Assembly (NCBI GenBank): GCA_021324365.1
Contig: JAJPJE010000084.1
Coordinates: forward strand, 1-33,221
Direction: 5' to 3'
Origin: Terriglobia bacterium
Lineage (GTDB): Bacteria > Acidobacteriota > Terriglobia > Terriglobales > Acidobacteriaceae
DNA length: 33,221 nucleotides
This document shows positions 7,926 through 20,429 of the stretch, piece after piece; position 1 is the first letter of the stretch; each line of letters starts with the position of its first letter. The translations under genes and the position numbers were made by a program. The notes below the pieces were generated by a model that searched no databases, was not told the DNA's origin, and saw nothing but the letters and a program-made list of their open reading frames with translations.

Positions 7926-8912
7926 TTACTGCGGCACATCCATCGGCACCAGGACATCGCAAAGGTCGCGAATAGCTTGTCGATGATCGTGACTCATGTT
8001 CACGAATTCGATTCCGTAGTCATCGATCTTGCGATGGCGTACCGTGCCGTAGATCTTCAACGCGTTGCGCGATGTCGGCAGGCTGAACTCAACCGTAACG
8101 ATTTCGCCCGGGATCAAGTCTCCCGACTCGACTTGCACGCCAACGCCGCCTTCGCTGAGATCGGTCGACTTTCCATGCAGGGTGGCATTCACGCCAGAAC
8201 GCAAAACTCTTACGGTGAGCGGCACGACAACGGCATAGCGTTGCAGGGTCCGTGTGATCGGCCATTTCAACGTCGCACCCGGACCGATCAACTGCTCCAT
8301 CGTCTGCACCAGGCGATTGTGATTCTCGCCCTTGTGCACAAATGCATCTGATTGCGCCAGCGCCCGCTCTGGCAGCTTGCCCGGAAATGCCGACAGGATG
8401 ACCAGTTTCGCCTGTGGCTGGCGGTGCTTCACCTGATCGATGAAGTCCGCAGTATCGATATCCGGTAAAGGATGATCCATGACGACTGCATGAAAATGAA
8501 ATCCAGCGAGCTGCTCGAAGGCGTCACGGCCGCTGGCTGCGGTATGAACGCCGTAGCCGAAAGCTTCGAGCATGGAACGGCGACGATCCAGTTCGTGCTC
8601 CTGATCGTCGATATAGAGAATGGTTTTGCGGATATTCTGGCCGACTTGCACACAGCGAACACCAACCTGGCCTTCGCGAGCGGAACCGGTTTCTCCGACC
8701 CATACAACTTCAAATCGTCCCTGATTGTCCCCGTTTTGGACACCGAGGATCGCACCCGGAGCAACGGTGTGCGTGAGACCCTTCAGACGTGCTCCCAGCG
8801 GAGAGATATCGAGCGTCTGGACCTGCTCCATAAACACGTGCCCATTGCCGTCCATACCCCACACCAAGGTGGTCAGACGCAGGGGGGTCCGTTCCTCATT
8901 CCGATGGGGCAT
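7926..8912 (-). CDS. PilZ-receiver-PilZ protein
   Basis: 328 residues with three domains. Residues about 3-90 are PilZ-like, with basic R4/R8 and the DISPLGARL turn (D35-x-S37-x-x-G40). About 96-210 are a receiver domain with the acidic pair D102-D103, phospho-acceptor D146 in VVMDHPLPD, S174 and K194, so phosphorylation is possible. About 222-325 are a second PilZ domain with the DLSEGGVGV signature (D251). PilZ domains of this type can bind cyclic di-GMP. No DNA-binding or enzymatic output is present, so the protein may act by binding partners, perhaps linking a histidine kinase signal and c-di-GMP to motility or surface behaviour. No clear ribosome binding site precedes the ATG at 8912, but the first PilZ domain begins immediately after it, which supports that start. 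Confidence 0.85.
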   Translation of the reverse strand: MPHRNEERTPLRLTTLVWGMDGNGHVFMEQVQTLDISPLGARLKGLTHTVAPGAILGVQNGDNQGRFEVVWVGETGSAREGQVGVRCVQVGQNIRKTILYIDDQEHELDRRRSMLEAFGYGVHTAASGRDAFEQLAGFHFHAVVMDHPLPDIDTADFIDQVKHRQPQAKLVILSAFPGKLPERALAQSDAFVHKGENHNRLVQTMEQLIGPGATLKWPITRTLQRYAVVVPLTVRVLRSGVNATLHGKSTDLSEGGVGVQVESGDLIPGEIVTVEFSLPTSRNALKIYGTVRHRKIDDYGIEFVNMSHDHRQAIRDLCDVLVPMDVPQ

Positions 8913-9086: not shown

Positions 9087-9392
9087 TTACGGCCAGCTGG
9101 TGCGGTGTTTCACTACATCCCCGGCAGCATTGGCGGCAGGGGCATTGGGTGTTGGCGTTTTAGCCAACACAGCCTCAAGCTCCGGGCTGACATACCCGGG
9201 CGCCTTGGGGGTAGCCGCCCCCTCTACGACAAAGGGTTGTTTGGGACGGAATTCTTCCGCATCCACCTGTTCCTTGGAATCGGCCACGATGGGCAGGACG
9301 ATGCGCAATGCCTCGATTTCTTTCTCCAGGCGCTTGATTTCAAGCTCTTTCGTGCGTAATAGGTCGCGAAGTGCTTCGTACACGGTTTTCAT
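9087..9392 (-). CDS. Small coiled-coil protein, function unknown
   Basis: 101 residues. The N-terminal half (about 1-35) is a heptad-patterned helix, MKTVYEALRDLLRTKELEIKRLEKEIEALRIVLP in two overlapping stretches, and predicts a coiled coil. The second half is Pro/Ala-rich and probably disordered, ending RTSWP. The ATG at 9392 has a good GAGGCGAG ribosome binding site about seven bases upstream. I recognise the layout from small conserved acidobacterial proteins; no function is known to me. It is divergent from the GAF-amidase gene, with 220 bases between them. Confidence 0.7.
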   Translation of the reverse strand: MKTVYEALRDLLRTKELEIKRLEKEIEALRIVLPIVADSKEQVDAEEFRPKQPFVVEGAATPKAPGYVSPELEAVLAKTPTPNAPAANAAGDVVKHRTSWP

Positions 9393-9612
9393 GCGAATGC
9401 TCGCCTCGATTCAGGGACTATAGCACAATCAGCAGTTCAGTCCATCCGCGTTTGCACTTAGCGGTGTGGTGTTTTTGTGGCTGTTGGTCACCCCCGTAAC
9501 AAAGCATGCACAGCCTCCGCTTCTTCTTGAAAACCGACCTGCTACTCGCAAATAATGGAGCAACAAACCTGTCCTGAGACTTACTCGTCGAAGAGAAGGC
9601 AGCAGGAATAAC

Positions 9613-11766
9613 TTGGCCGGGAACGAAGGACCCCAATATCGAGCTAACCACCGCGTCCGCATGAGGCCGCCGGCAGCGTTATTGCCCGATTGGGATTTCT
9701 TTCAGGCCTTGCTTGCTTTTGCCTTTACCGTTCAGCAGGAAAATCAAAAGCTTCGTGGTGAGATTTCCCGCCTTGCTCGAGAAAGGGCGGATGCCGATGA
9801 GGGTGAAGGAATCCATGTCGCCCTGACCAGGATCGTTGCCAGCGCTCAGAATCTGACCGCCGCATCGGGAGCGGCATTGGCACTGGGCACCGAAGAAGCA
9901 ATGGTTTGCGTTGCGCGCAGCGGTCGTATTGCTCCGGAAATGGGTTCCTCCGTGCCACTCGAACAGGGACTCGCAGCGGAATGCGCGCGGACACGCAAAA
10001 GCGTGCTTTGCGTAAACGCAACCGGCGACCCGCGTGTGAACCCAATCTCCTCGCGTGCGCTCGGCGTCAGTTCAATGCTGTACGTACCTCTGCAGGCGCA
10101 GGACGAACTCATCGGCATCCTCGGACTGTTTTCCGAACGTCCCTCGCACTTCGCCTCCAGCGATTTGCAGTTGCTACGGTACATTGCCGCACTGGTTCTA
10201 GAGCAACTGCACAAACAATCACCATTGCTGCAGGCCATCACGCCGCGCGTGCTGGTGGAAACGATCAAATCATCTGCGCCGGCAATAGTTGAGAAGGAAC
10301 CGGAACCAGCGCCACGTCCCGTTGATGAAGGCAGCGCTTCCGAAATAAGAGCGTCCATCAAGGGCTCAGATGCTGCGCCGCTGAAACCCAAAGCAACAGC
10401 TACGGTTTCAGTTCGAGCTCCGTCACCCACACCACCCGGCAAGGCGATTGCCCCGGACATAAAACTTGAACCCGCGCCTGTTCCGACTGAAGAAGTCTTT
10501 CATGACACGCTGATCCAAAACGATGGCAGCAACGTCGCGCTGATCACCACGGTTCTCCTCGTGTTGCTGCTGGGTTCTCTTGGCGGCGGCTACTACATGC
10601 GGCACCATGCACCGCCTATCAAAATGCAGGCTCCCGAAACGGAAACGCAAAAGCCTGCAACGCCTGAAACCAAGACAGTGCCTTCGACCGCCCCTGCGGG
10701 AAGCTTGGAACTAGGCCGGTCGTTGATGCCTGGCCTCCGCTACTGGATGTCGGACGGACGCGCCATGGTAACCATCGTTTTCGGTAAAGAGGTGACTTAC
10801 GACTCGGTGCGGTTGCACGATCCGGAACGCATTTACTTCGATCTGCATGGTTTCGAGTTCGGCGGTCCTAAGGACAAGGCGTTCGACATCAATGACAACC
10901 TGTTGCGGCGGATCCGGGTGGGCCTGTTGCAACCCGGCACAACACGAATCGTTTTTGATCTCGCGCAACCGCTGTCCTATACGGCAACAGAGTCTAGGAG
11001 TCCCGATGGACTCGTGATCGACTTCGAGAGCAAGCGATCCGTGTCCAGTCCTACTTCTACCCTGGCGTCGCCCGAACCAGAGTCCACGGTTGCTCCTCAC
11101 GCATTAACGGTGGTCATTGATCCCGGTCACGGCGGGCGCGACACCGGCACTATCGGTCACAATGGATTGGAAGAAAAACGGTTAACTCTGGATGTGGCGA
11201 AACGACTTGGTAAATTGCTCGAGGAGAACCTCGGGGCGCACGTACTGTATACGCGGAAAGACGACCACTACGTTTCCCTCGAGAACCGAAGTGCCGTGGC
11301 AAAGAAGGCGAATTCGGACTTTTTCATCTCTATTCACGCCAATTCCAGCCAATTCCCGATGGTCAATGGAGTAGAAACGTATTACTTCAAATCTTCCTCG
11401 GAAGTGATTGAAAACGTGACGCACGACGGCCACCGAGGTACAGATTCTTCCGATCGCGCACGGCGCTTTGCTGCGGCTGTTCAGCAGGCATTGATTCAGA
11501 ACCTGAGTACGAAGCAGGTTTCGATTCGCGATCGCGGTGTTCGAACGGCACCTTTTGTCGTGCTGCGAGATATGCAGATGCCGGCAGTGCTGGCCGAGAT
11601 CTCGTTCATCAGCAGCGAAGCCGGTGAACAGCAACTTCGGACGAGCGCGTATCGTGATCGGATCGCCAATGCGCTCTACCAGGGAATCGCCCACAATGTC
11701 TTGCCGAAGAGTCCAGAAGGTGGATCGGTTGCTGCTCTGACGCATGGCAGCGCCTCGGCGCCTTAG
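9613..11766 (+). CDS. GAF-TM-AMIN-N-acetylmuramoyl-L-alanine amidase fusion
   Basis: 717 residues from a TTG at 9613 with AGGA five bases upstream; an ATG at 9661 is the main alternative and has a poorer site. Order: short coiled coil (about 38-60), GAF domain (65-202), Pro/Ala-rich linker, one transmembrane helix (about 308-328), second Pro/Thr linker, AMIN domain (about 375-472) and an Amidase_3 catalytic domain (about 498-700). The amidase zinc ligands appear intact: H506 in DPGHGG, E520 or E521, H575 in SIHAN, and catalytic E662 in AEISFIS. Amidases cut the MurNAc-L-Ala bond and separate daughter cells; AMIN domains target them to septal peptidoglycan. Here the amidase would be tethered in the inner membrane facing the periplasm, with a sensory GAF domain in the cytosol. 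Confidence 0.9.
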   Translation: MAGNEGPQYRANHRVRMRPPAALLPDWDFFQALLAFAFTVQQENQKLRGEISRLARERADADEGEGIHVALTRIVASAQNLTAASGAALALGTEEAMVCVARSGRIAPEMGSSVPLEQGLAAECARTRKSVLCVNATGDPRVNPISSRALGVSSMLYVPLQAQDELIGILGLFSERPSHFASSDLQLLRYIAALVLEQLHKQSPLLQAITPRVLVETIKSSAPAIVEKEPEPAPRPVDEGSASEIRASIKGSDAAPLKPKATATVSVRAPSPTPPGKAIAPDIKLEPAPVPTEEVFHDTLIQNDGSNVALITTVLLVLLLGSLGGGYYMRHHAPPIKMQAPETETQKPATPETKTVPSTAPAGSLELGRSLMPGLRYWMSDGRAMVTIVFGKEVTYDSVRLHDPERIYFDLHGFEFGGPKDKAFDINDNLLRRIRVGLLQPGTTRIVFDLAQPLSYTATESRSPDGLVIDFESKRSVSSPTSTLASPEPESTVAPHALTVVIDPGHGGRDTGTIGHNGLEEKRLTLDVAKRLGKLLEENLGAHVLYTRKDDHYVSLENRSAVAKKANSDFFISIHANSSQFPMVNGVETYYFKSSSEVIENVTHDGHRGTDSSDRARRFAAAVQQALIQNLSTKQVSIRDRGVRTAPFVVLRDMQMPAVLAEISFISSEAGEQQLRTSAYRDRIANALYQGIAHNVLPKSPEGGSVAALTHGSASAP

Positions 11767-17863: not shown

Positions 17864-19708
17864 ATGCCGACGGACAGCCATCGAAAGCGGAGGGCCGCGG
17901 TTACAATGTCATGGATGCGCTCATCCTTCGGCTATGTCTTCCCTGCTTTCCTGGCAATCGCATCTTTTGCGCAACAACCGGCGGCAGTTCCCAAAGCGAT
18001 CACCGATCCGAAACTGCTGGTCAGCACTAACGTTGCCGACCTGACTACCTATGCGCTCGACAAGTTCATGATGACGCGTTCGATCGGTGAAAGCTCGTGG
18101 TCTCCAGATGGCAAAAGCGTCGTCGTCGAAACGAACATCAGCGGACGGGACAATCTTTGGATCGTGCCGGCAGACGGCGGATGGCCGCGGCAACTCACGA
18201 TCAGCGATCAGCGGCAGACCAAACCTGCATGGTCTCCGGATGGACAGTGGATCGCGTTTCAGTCTGATAAAGACGGGAATGAGCAGTGGGACATTTTTGT
18301 GGCCTCGCCCAGGAACGGTGACGTCGTCAATCTGACGAACTCGCCCGAGGTTTCCGAAGAATCTCCCAGTTGGCAGCCCCGCGGACGTTTGCTGGCGATC
18401 ACGGTTAAGGCAAGCGGGGCGGCGCAGGAGGTCGCCACTCTTGATGTCTTAACGCGGCGAGTCCGCAAGCTGACGAACACCACATCGAAGGACGTTGTCA
18501 ACTCCAGGCCAGTCTGGTCGCCAGATGGAAAGCAGATCGCCTACACGCAGGCATCAGGCGCTGATTCCAACGTGTTCGTGGTGGATATCGAAACGGGCAA
18601 ATCGACAAATCTGACGCCGCACACTGGAGAGCATCGCTACTCGGCAGCCGCGTGGTCGCCGGATGGAAAAAACCTTCTAGTCACCTCGAATGAAGGCGCG
18701 TCTGACCGTGTCGGACTTCTCCATGTAGCCAGCAAACAGATACGCTGGCTGTCGAACGGGAAAACTACGGCAAAGGCTGGATGCTTCTCTCCAGACGGCA
18801 AGCGCGCCGCGTGGACCTTAGGACGAGACAGCACTGAAACAATTGTGATTTACGATTTGCTGACGAAGCAGACGCAGGTACTGCCGGCGAGAGAAGGCGT
18901 TGATTCGCTCGCTGGCTCCGCAACGGCCTTTTCGAAATCAGGCAATGATTTGCTATACAGGTACAGCGGTCCGACAGCACCGGATGACCTCTGGGTTTAC
19001 GATCTGTCAACTCGCCGCTCCCGCCAGATTACGAATTCTCTCGTAGCCGGGTTGCGTCCGGAGGATATGGTCTCACCTACCCTGGTTCAGCTTCCGAACA
19101 CGGGTGCACACGCGCTCGTCTATGTGCCGCACAACATAATCAAGAACGCGCAATATCCGGCATTGATCTATCTTGCGGACACACAATTTCAGAATTCGTT
19201 TCGTGCTTTACTGCAGTACATGGTGAACCAGGGATACATTGTCGTTATTCCGGACCGGCCTGAGGATGCGGCAACTGCGGCCGACTTTATCAAGCAGAAC
19301 GGGTATGTGAATCCGAAAAAGATCATTCTGATGGGGCGGGGCTATGGCGGATATCTCACGCTCGCATCCATAGTGAAATCACCAGACGAATGGGCTGCAG
19401 CGGTGGCGGTAGCTCCCGATATGAAATCGCGGGCTGGAAGTGACGATCCGATCTCCGTCACAAAAATAGTAAATACACCGTTGCTGGCGATTGCCGGCGC
19501 GAACGACCCGAATCTATCACCGGGCGACTTGCAACAGATCACCAATGCCGTCAAACGGAATGGCGGGAGCGCACAGTTGAAGATTTATGATGAAGAGGGC
19601 AGCCCCCTCGAACACATCGACAACAGGCTGGATGCCGCGAAGCGTATCTCCGACTTCATCAAGGTACAGGTGCCCTCCCCGGGGTGCGGATGTGAGCTGA
19701 TACAGTGA
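17864..19708 (+). CDS. TolB-propeller/S9 peptidase-like protein lacking catalytic Ser
   Basis: 614 residues from the first ATG; an ATG at 17906 (11 bases after GGAGGG) would give a more typical signal peptide (hydrophobic core up to AIASFAQQ). Residues about 85-400 form a beta-propeller with WSPDG-type repeats (at least five copies). Residues about 425-605 are the alpha/beta-hydrolase half of prolyl oligopeptidase family S9. The nucleophile elbow, normally GGSYGG, reads GRGYGG, so the catalytic Ser is Gly493; the acid position survives (AGANDPNLS) but the usual EGHGF histidine motif is EGSPL. The oxyanion HGGP motif is also absent. This is probably a secreted pseudoenzyme that binds peptides or the envelope. 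It converges on the PilZ gene. Confidence 0.85.
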   Translation: MPTDSHRKRRAAVTMSWMRSSFGYVFPAFLAIASFAQQPAAVPKAITDPKLLVSTNVADLTTYALDKFMMTRSIGESSWSPDGKSVVVETNISGRDNLWIVPADGGWPRQLTISDQRQTKPAWSPDGQWIAFQSDKDGNEQWDIFVASPRNGDVVNLTNSPEVSEESPSWQPRGRLLAITVKASGAAQEVATLDVLTRRVRKLTNTTSKDVVNSRPVWSPDGKQIAYTQASGADSNVFVVDIETGKSTNLTPHTGEHRYSAAAWSPDGKNLLVTSNEGASDRVGLLHVASKQIRWLSNGKTTAKAGCFSPDGKRAAWTLGRDSTETIVIYDLLTKQTQVLPAREGVDSLAGSATAFSKSGNDLLYRYSGPTAPDDLWVYDLSTRRSRQITNSLVAGLRPEDMVSPTLVQLPNTGAHALVYVPHNIIKNAQYPALIYLADTQFQNSFRALLQYMVNQGYIVVIPDRPEDAATAADFIKQNGYVNPKKIILMGRGYGGYLTLASIVKSPDEWAAAVAVAPDMKSRAGSDDPISVTKIVNTPLLAIAGANDPNLSPGDLQQITNAVKRNGGSAQLKIYDEEGSPLEHIDNRLDAAKRISDFIKVQVPSPGCGCELIQ

Positions 19709-19718
19709 CAAGCGAATC

Positions 19719-20429
19719 TTAGTCTGCTGCTCCCGTCCGTTGTAGCCACTTTTGCAGGTGCTCCTTACATTGCATTGTCATGAACAGAAATTCCAAACCG
19801 ACGCGCCCCTGCTCGTCTCTCCAACACACCTGACAATCGGCACGGATTTCGATTGAATCCCCGGGCAAGTGGAAACTGATGGTGACATTGTCGTTCAGCG
19901 GCTGTGGATGATCTGTTAAAACACAGATACCTCCCTCGGCCACATTGAGCGTTTGGCAGTGACACGGAGGTTGAGCCGGGCGCTCCAGAGAAGCACTAAC
20001 GCAACACGCGCGCCGCGTATATTTCCTGCGCTCATTTTGCATGATTTGATGAGCTGCCTTCAGCAATTGCTGAACACTGTCGGGTGAAAGCGGCGCATCG
20101 AGCGTAAAGTTGGCGCCGGCAAGGAACGCTTTCTTCACGTGTTCTCCGGAGCCGGTGATGGCCAGGATAACGGAACGGCGGTTTGAAGGGCTGAGGCGCG
20201 CATTTTCGATCGCAACAAAAGCGTCGTCGCCCAAATGGCAGTCCACCACGATCCCTTCATAACGGCCATGATTCAGCATGCGTGGAAAAGCGATCGGATC
20301 CAGGCAGATTGCCGATGAAATCTGCAGGCCCTGCATGTAGGAACGCAACTCCTGGATCAGTGTCAAATCCGTACCGAGCAGCAGACAGTTGCTACTCTCG
20401 CGCAGCTCCGAAAAATTGTCGGTGTCCAT
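19719..20429 (-). CDS. Pseudo-receiver/PilZ-domain protein
   Basis: 236 residues. The first ~125 follow a receiver fold with Asp63 at the phospho-acceptor position (VVDCHLGDDAF), but the N-terminal acidic pair is missing (CLLLGTD) and the conserved Lys near KP is replaced (TLDAPLSPD). Phosphorylation is therefore doubtful. Residues about 134-232 are a PilZ domain with the RRKYTRR basic start and LNVAEGGICV in place of the D/N-x-S-x-x-G loop (Ser to Ala), so c-di-GMP binding may be altered. It has the same general plan as the PilZ-receiver-PilZ protein at 7.9-8.9 kb. The ATG at 20429 has only a weak AGG directly before it. Confidence 0.8.
   Translation of the reverse strand: MDTDNFSELRESSNCLLLGTDLTLIQELRSYMQGLQISSAICLDPIAFPRMLNHGRYEGIVVDCHLGDDAFVAIENARLSPSNRRSVILAITGSGEHVKKAFLAGANFTLDAPLSPDSVQQLLKAAHQIMQNERRKYTRRACCVSASLERPAQPPCHCQTLNVAEGGICVLTDHPQPLNDNVTISFHLPGDSIEIRADCQVCWRDEQGRVGLEFLFMTMQCKEHLQKWLQRTGAAD

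Follow-up and report, generated by a model that had tools for sequence, protein, structure and literature searches.

The DNA analyzed here (the window) is a stretch of 33,221 nucleotides, positions 1 to 33,221 of contig JAJPJE010000084.1, from a Terriglobia bacterium of the family Acidobacteriaceae in the phylum Acidobacteriota (GCA_021324365.1; 4.44 Mb in 125 contigs, 95% complete). At 9613–11766 on its forward strand lies a 717-amino-acid (aa) open reading frame (ORF) whose product, here called a GAF-amidase, joins a GAF domain, a single transmembrane (TM) segment, an AMIN domain and an Amidase_3 domain. The start codon is TTG (9613–9615), and an AGGA ribosome-binding-like site is located 5 nt before it in the sequence (9604–9607); the "HRVR" or "HRIR" residues directly upstream of the next ATG were common to the window protein and its counterparts in genomes G026 and G015 in an alignment. 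Following the chain on the same strand, an N-terminal helix (residues 27–57; 9691–9783) was seen in an AlphaFold2 model, and its "D.LQALLAF" type motif precedes the GAF domain in most of 12 aligned homologues. The GAF domain itself (residues 69–195; 9817–10197), which includes C124 and C133, was matched by Pfam GAF_2 (PF13185) at 2.8e-16, with 60.4 bits against a cut-off of 28.6. A Pro/Ala-rich linker, presumed cytosolic (residues 203–307; 10219–10533), leads to the TM segment (residues 308–326, VALITTVLLVLLLGSLGGG; 10534–10590; Kyte-Doolittle 2.19 over 19 residues), which is followed by a second linker, presumed periplasmic (residues 327–372; 10591–10728); both linkers were called from composition and from a predicted local distance difference test (pLDDT) score below 50 over most of their length. 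The AMIN domain (residues 375–471; 10735–11025; PF11741, 4e-12) and the Amidase_3 catalytic domain (residues 500–693; 11110–11691; PF01520, 1.8e-50) complete the protein, and all three Pfam matches were over the curated cut-offs. Hydropathy revealed no N-terminal hydrophobic or signal-like stretch in the window protein, and Pfam gave no PilZ match. The first-pass annotation, made from the letters, had read the same domain order and placed the GAF domain within residues 65–202, and it had contrasted this layout with soluble amidases controlled by EnvC or NlpD; the domain matches, the internal TM segment and the absence of an N-terminal hydrophobic stretch bear it out.

The amidase active-site residues are intact. 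The zinc-binding H506, E521 and H575 and the catalytic E662 were invariant in alignments of 9 and 23 rows, which settles in favor of E521 an earlier choice between E520 and E521 and confirms the other residues named in the same claim. Enzymatic activity is predicted from these residues, and as far as they tell, an inactive amidase can be rejected. The AlphaFold2 model, built from 23 sequences (the window and related loci), had a mean pLDDT of 69.7 and a predicted template modeling score of 0.43; the GAF, AMIN and amidase folds were confident, with ten-residue blocks mostly at pLDDT 76–97, and the linkers were unstructured. The catalytic part superposed on Nostoc AmiC2 (5emi) with a VIA-align Z of 27.8 and 1.8 Å over 179 residues. 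Among solved sequences, phmmer ranked the latch-free enzymes 5emi, 4rn7 (Clostridioides difficile CD2761) and 1jwq (CwlV) before AmiA as the closest relatives of the window amidase domain; all three are among the top four by VIA-align, which 5emi and 4rn7 lead, and no GAF domain is reported in these enzymes. The best solved-sequence matches of the housekeeping amidase domain of the same genome were AmiA and AmiC. The GAF part (residues 58–213) has the same fold as the GAF structures 2qyb and 4mmn (Z 18.9); 4mmn, a type II free methionine-R-sulfoxide reductase (fRMsr), aligned over 138 residues at 17% identity, and several other GAF structures were within 1 Z. By sequence, the GAF domain had a single match among solved proteins, 3p01 (E=0.004).

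The architecture recurs in other genomes. We found GAF, AMIN and Amidase_3 in one frame in 18 distinct complete sequences including that of the window, 16 of them from surveyed genomes, all of the window's family, and two from named records (L115 and L116). A first survey covered 61 genomes, 37 of them from the family (the window's own and 36 others), and complete GAF-amidases were present in nine of these 37 (G000, G003, G005, G006, G013, G022, G026, G027 and G028), while in two further family genomes (G014 and G036) the gene runs off the contig end; among the matches listed for the other 24 genomes, none covers the GAF domain. In 399 genomes of the class, 12 full GAF-amidases were found, all in the window's family (G000, G006, G013, G027, G028, G548, G554, G599, G613, G661, G676 and G679), with the GAF domain checked for G554 and the open frame checked for G599, whose match includes one stop. 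A survey of 396 genomes across the phylum (E up to 1e-115) returned three (G000, G006 and G013) and five other matches starting at model position 344 or later. Among the matches listed, the named records with a GAF-amidase were Terriglobia bacterium SRVP_17 (L114, the same segment as in G554), Acidobacteria gp1 AA132 (L115) and Terriglobia SRVP_8 (L116); this alignment-based scan used two amidase motifs as query and was not exhaustive. A single-sequence scan of genome contigs found no relatives, and a phylum scan with the N-terminal half alone returned many GAF proteins and was uninformative on fusions. The occurrence of 18 distinct sequences in one clade rules out an ORF artefact or a chance fusion. 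G003 also has a broken GAF copy (contig C78) with one TGA inside the match.

According to PMC10268282, a blocking helix with Glu167 bound to the zinc keeps Escherichia coli AmiA inactive, and EnvC docks on the helix that follows; EnvC is a periplasmic LytM protein that activates AmiA and AmiB, and FtsEX relays the signal to it from inside. AmiC2 and CwlV are described in PMC8496864 as having no blocking helix and being active alone. The genome of the window encodes three Amidase_3 proteins, namely the GAF-amidase, a TPR-AMIN-Amidase_3 paralogue (L001) and a divergent third (L003). In a phmmer alignment the "EREN" of AmiA pairs with the "AREN" of L001 and, counting from the zinc ligand His65, Glu167 falls on that Glu. 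New here is that this latch motif is lost in the GAF-amidase and kept in the ordinary AMIN amidase of the same genome in 15 of 15 pairs: the pattern A-x-[RKQHM]-E-N (AAREN-type) was present in every one of the 15 housekeeping amidases and in none of their 15 GAF-amidase partners. This comparison included 15 of the 18 GAF-amidases; for G676, L115 and L116 no housekeeping partner was located. An ELxDLVK stretch, corresponding to the activator-binding helix, follows the motif in the 15 housekeeping partners and was not seen by eye in the 15 GAF-amidases. In the window protein a His stands at the spacing of the latch Glu, and the comparison left a degenerate remnant of the blocking and activator-binding helix region without AAREN motif at residues 592–612 (11386–11448, forward strand), where the pLDDT drops to 44–64. 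AlphaFold2 predicted two helices at the regulatory segment of the housekeeping amidase L118, whereas in the window protein only residues 598–601 came out helical; confidence there was low in both models.

Broader counts were made on 116 non-GAF amidase domains. The A..EN pattern occurred in 79 of 90 of them, the remaining 26 lying outside the reach of the His pattern, and the 19 GAF rows of this count include one truncated copy (L054). A looser xEN pattern was found in 105/116 non-GAF domains versus 2/18 GAF-amidases, namely in L092, where it is in register, and as "IEN" in the window protein, where it is not. The regulatory segment was 59–98 residues long in the 16 GAF-amidases measured and exactly 85 in 84 of the 116 non-GAF domains (two of the 18 GAF and 10 of the 116 non-GAF domains were not measurable). 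So the EnvC-type control site appears, from these patterns, to have degenerated in the gene copy to which the GAF-TM half was added, and the active site of the GAF-amidase, at least that of the window protein, is probably open and not gated by EnvC.

To place the GAF-amidases, a tree of 77 amidase domains was built and rooted at midpoint. The 18 GAF-amidases formed one clade (ultrafast bootstrap and Shimodaira-Hasegawa-like approximate likelihood ratio test (SH-aLRT) 87/68; 88% of bootstrap trees), which was nested in a group (86/84) whose other members are named acidobacterial records and the housekeeping AMIN amidases of the family. A second tree, from which the regulatory segment was removed, again recovered 15 GAF rows as one clade (SH-aLRT 88); it left out L004 (the window), L006, L011 and L107, and the place of the window itself is given by the 77-domain tree. 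The GAF-amidases branch within the latch-bearing enzymes of acidobacteria and away from the cyanobacterial and Bacillota sequences, so that their loss of the latch looks separate from the latch-free state of the latter.

Selection was measured in six pairs of close relatives drawn from the other GAF-amidases, in which synonymous divergence (dS) ranged from about 0.9 to saturation. Nonsynonymous divergence (dN) was 0.042–0.176 in the GAF domain and 0.065–0.181 in the amidase domain, and lower in the GAF domain in five of the six pairs, with a GAF dN/dS of about 0.03–0.12 in four close pairs and saturated dS in two more. The dN of linker and TM segment reached 0.43–0.64. The dN of the GAF domain is comparable to that of the amidase, and therefore the GAF part is translated, as its conserved frame also indicates, and is under constraint similar to that on the enzyme, whereas the linkers diverge fast. 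These ratios rule out the GAF domain as neutral baggage. The first-pass annotation had named an internal start yielding only the AMIN-amidase part as a refuting result; the translated GAF part speaks against it, although a second, shorter product may be made as well.

Within the GAF domain, C124 and C133 were present in 18/18 GAF-amidases, and two further Cys positions in 13 (residue 99 in the window protein) and 10 (residue 146, a Ser in the window protein). The genome of the window has 31 GAF_2 matches; 14 GAF domains were scored for the pair, leaving out matches with E >1e-3 to the GAF-amidase model or shorter than 90 aa, and both cysteines were found in two, one in two and none in 10. The four Cys-bearing domains belong to the GAF-amidase, two PilZ-GAF-TM-TonB_C proteins and L066, which has no clear TM segment. 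A redox, metal or haem role of the pair is a guess that fits; the catalytic Cys positions of fRMsr, compared by eye, presumably differ from C124 and C133. The L066 protein (L066:946–1821; G000:C117:22353–22775) also shows, by eye, an N-terminal CxxC...CxxC zinc-ribbon-like stretch, and proteins like it adjoin PilZ-GAF-Sel1-like genes in L071 and L077.

Sibling proteins with the same front end bear on the topology. Pfam identified PilZ, GAF and TonB_C in L064:1026–3209 and L065:710–2848, both from the window's genome, and in L082:622–2655, GAF and TonB_C in L067:878–3043, and PilZ, GAF and Sel1 in L069:2575–4287. A TM segment lies between the GAF and the C-terminal domain in each of the five. 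These acidobacterial proteins share with the GAF-amidase the GAF domain, a Pro-rich linker, a single TM segment and a C-terminal domain of periplasmic type, and differ from it in the identity of that domain and in the PilZ domain placed in front in four of the five. PilZ must be cytosolic to sense cyclic di-GMP, and TonB_C must be periplasmic to work. The shared GAF-linker-TM layout, with PilZ in front and TonB_C behind, thus argues for a GAF domain inside and a C-terminal module outside, and the GAF domain of the window protein is probably cytosolic and its amidase periplasmic (N-in/C-out). In L071 and L077, ORFs that by eye resemble the PilZ-GAF-TM-Sel1 type lie near the GAF-amidase genes.

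All these suggest that the window protein is a peptidoglycan amidase of the AMIN-Amidase_3 type that is specific to its lineage and anchored in the membrane, with a GAF sensor in the cytosol, in which the latch is lost and control comes from inside, and that it goes back to a duplicated housekeeping AMIN amidase within a single acidobacterial family; we give this explanation as a whole a probability of roughly 0.45. Such a copy would have gained the N-terminal GAF-linker-TM half and lost the blocking-helix motif and the activator-binding helix by which LytM proteins switch AmiA/B/C-type enzymes, so that the amidase, most likely, would no longer wait for an EnvC/NlpD-type activator. The GAF domain may read a ligand or a redox state, perhaps via the conserved Cys pair; this input may alter the self-association or the position of the anchored protein, which in turn would determine the site and timing of contact between the AMIN-amidase half and peptidoglycan. 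Here we infer the topology, the activator-free competence of the active site, the GAF input and the mode of coupling. A more far-reaching version, in which amidase control moved from the periplasm to the cytosol by discarding the EnvC-type latch and wiring in, via the anchor, a Cys-pair GAF sensor of redox state, metal or a small molecule, as one branch of a modular inside-to-outside (PilZ-)GAF-TM design driving amidase, TonB or Sel1 modules, is put forward tentatively.

Several observations weigh against this explanation. The top Foldseek match of the whole model was AmiC (4bin), spanning AMIN and amidase. The support of the GAF-amidase clade is moderate, and the branches leading to the window sequence, L008 and L016 are long. 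In the pair L009/L115, the rate of evolution of the GAF domain is about double that of the amidase. The regulatory segment of the window protein, at 67 residues, is longer than those of nine latch-free enzymes (41–46). Summed over 16 of the 18 GAF-amidases, the TM segment is flanked by 26 Lys/Arg and 29 Asp/Glu on its N-terminal side and by 32 Lys/Arg and 9 Asp/Glu on its C-terminal side, leaving out L011, in which hydropathy missed the TM segment, and L093, in which it picked a Pro-rich stretch (residues 442–460 being the better candidate); this excess on the C-flank does not favor an N-in topology, and four of six paralogues, TonB_C-type among them, also have more Lys/Arg there. Proteins with GAF-TM-AMIN and no amidase exist in G015 (L010/L076), where the protein stops after AMIN and a short-chain dehydrogenase/reductase (SDR) gene is directly 3′, and as a second copy in G676 (L228:1558–3147), which retains the Cys pair and has a complete GAF-amidase on a separate contig of the same genome. 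Hence the GAF half need not act on an amidase of its own chain. The remaining points concern the linkers and a retained Glu, each of which bears on one of the alternatives below.

Among these alternatives, the one that survives best, though we consider it unlikely, is that the GAF-TM half only dimerizes or positions the enzyme without any small-molecule signal, and that the unlatched amidase is controlled by its amount and place. GAF domains often dimerize, and the amidase-less proteins would suit such a role. About 105 disordered residues separate GAF and TM, and about 46 separate TM and AMIN; these long, fast-evolving linkers make a rigid conformational relay unlikely and argue for clustering, tethering or placement. 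Against a pure anchor, the Cys pair is kept in every GAF-amidase while the rest of the GAF domain diverges, and the GAF domain is under strong purifying selection, which a pure anchor could also explain. The earlier idea that a cytosolic signal directly sets cleavage therefore fared unevenly: it is strengthened because the blocking and activator-binding segment is degraded in the GAF-amidases and kept in the same-genome paralogue, while the linkers speak against the directness of the relay.

It is less probable still that the enzyme remains under activator control, with a LytM protein binding the residual segment and the GAF domain as a secondary input. The window's genome encodes four M23/LytM proteins, and 12 of the 16 GAF-amidases measured have a segment little short of full length (77–83 versus 85 residues). 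In five of the 15 paired GAF-amidases (L008, L009, L011, L089 and L092, the last as KREN), a Glu still stands 32 residues past the zinc His, so that the latch loss may be incomplete in some. These points stand against the absence of the full motif in all 15 and the failure of the model to predict, at its low confidence, the two helices seen in L118. A reversed or missing membrane crossing, with the GAF domain outside or the amidase inside as a non-lytic protein, is very improbable: the flank charges lean C-in, but nothing was seen that could export about 300 N-terminal residues, and the paralogues need their PilZ domain in the cytosol and their TonB_C domain in the periplasm. The first-pass reading of the GAF domain as not periplasmic agrees with the lack of any signal-like stretch before it by hydropathy and gains no support from the charges.

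Set against known systems, the preferred reading of a membrane-anchored, internally controlled amidase combines familiar parts. With AmiB/AmiC-type enzymes (E. coli AmiC 4bin and Bartonella henselae AmiB 3ne8; also AmiA 8c2o), the GAF-amidases share the Amidase_3 fold, the zinc and catalytic residues and, except for AmiA, which itself has no AMIN, the AMIN domain in front. They differ from AmiA/B/C-type enzymes in having a TM anchor and a presumed cytosolic GAF domain instead of being soluble and exported, and in having lost or degraded the blocking-helix motif and the EnvC-binding helix. By sequence and fold the window protein is thus an AMIN-Amidase_3 amidase, and it is predicted not to be of the EnvC/NlpD-regulated type, as it lacks the latch motif, the docking helix and soluble export. 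Staphylococcus aureus LytH-ActH, according to PMC8496864, likewise pairs an amidase with a membrane-spanning partner for its control, and 7tj4 was among the fold matches; two proteins are used there, whereas the GAF-amidase has a sensor-like domain and the amidase in one chain. No GAF-amidase or GAF-TM-TonB fusion was found among the listed titles and abstract starts of open-access papers, although such proteins may be on record in subscription papers or domain-architecture databases.

To our knowledge, envelope control of this acidobacterial group has been little studied, and the data hint that cell-wall cutting may be steered there from within the cell. One chain that carries both a sensor and an apparently unlatched amidase, in a cell that also has a latched paralogue, would offer a natural experiment in how a wall-cutting enzyme is kept safe without a latch. 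That this GAF front end is also joined to TonB_C or Sel1 domains suggests that one-component signaling from inside to outside is a general plan in the group. A different family of the class has a further AMIN amidase fused to a domain of cytosolic type: L106:499–3009 (G506) has an N-terminal AAA_22 (ExeA-like) ATPase domain, a weak TM-like stretch and AMIN-Amidase_3 with the latch motif kept (ATREN); L103 and L109 possibly belong to the same type.

The gene neighborhoods agree with vertical descent. A receiver-PilZ gene, an inositol-phosphate synthase gene, an SDR gene and a VTT gene are shared around the GAF-amidase in the window, G026 and, beside its amidase-less form, G015. The first of these, on the reverse strand at 7926–8912, encodes a response-regulator receiver and PilZ protein by Pfam and lies beside the gene in all three. 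Between it and the GAF-amidase, a divergent 101-aa protein, coiled-coil-like by eye and with no Pfam match, is encoded on the reverse strand at 9087–9392; an ORF that overlaps it is also conserved beside the GAF-amidase in G026. At the left end of the window, the product of a reverse-strand ORF (301–1317) had a GAF_2 match below threshold (23.3 bits against the cut-off of 28.6). The other genomes share a different set of neighbors, and two genes at 17864–20429 occur in both sets: a peptidase-like gene at 17864–19708 and, on the reverse strand at 19719–20429, a receiver-PilZ-like gene, both assigned by eye and found alongside each other in several relatives.

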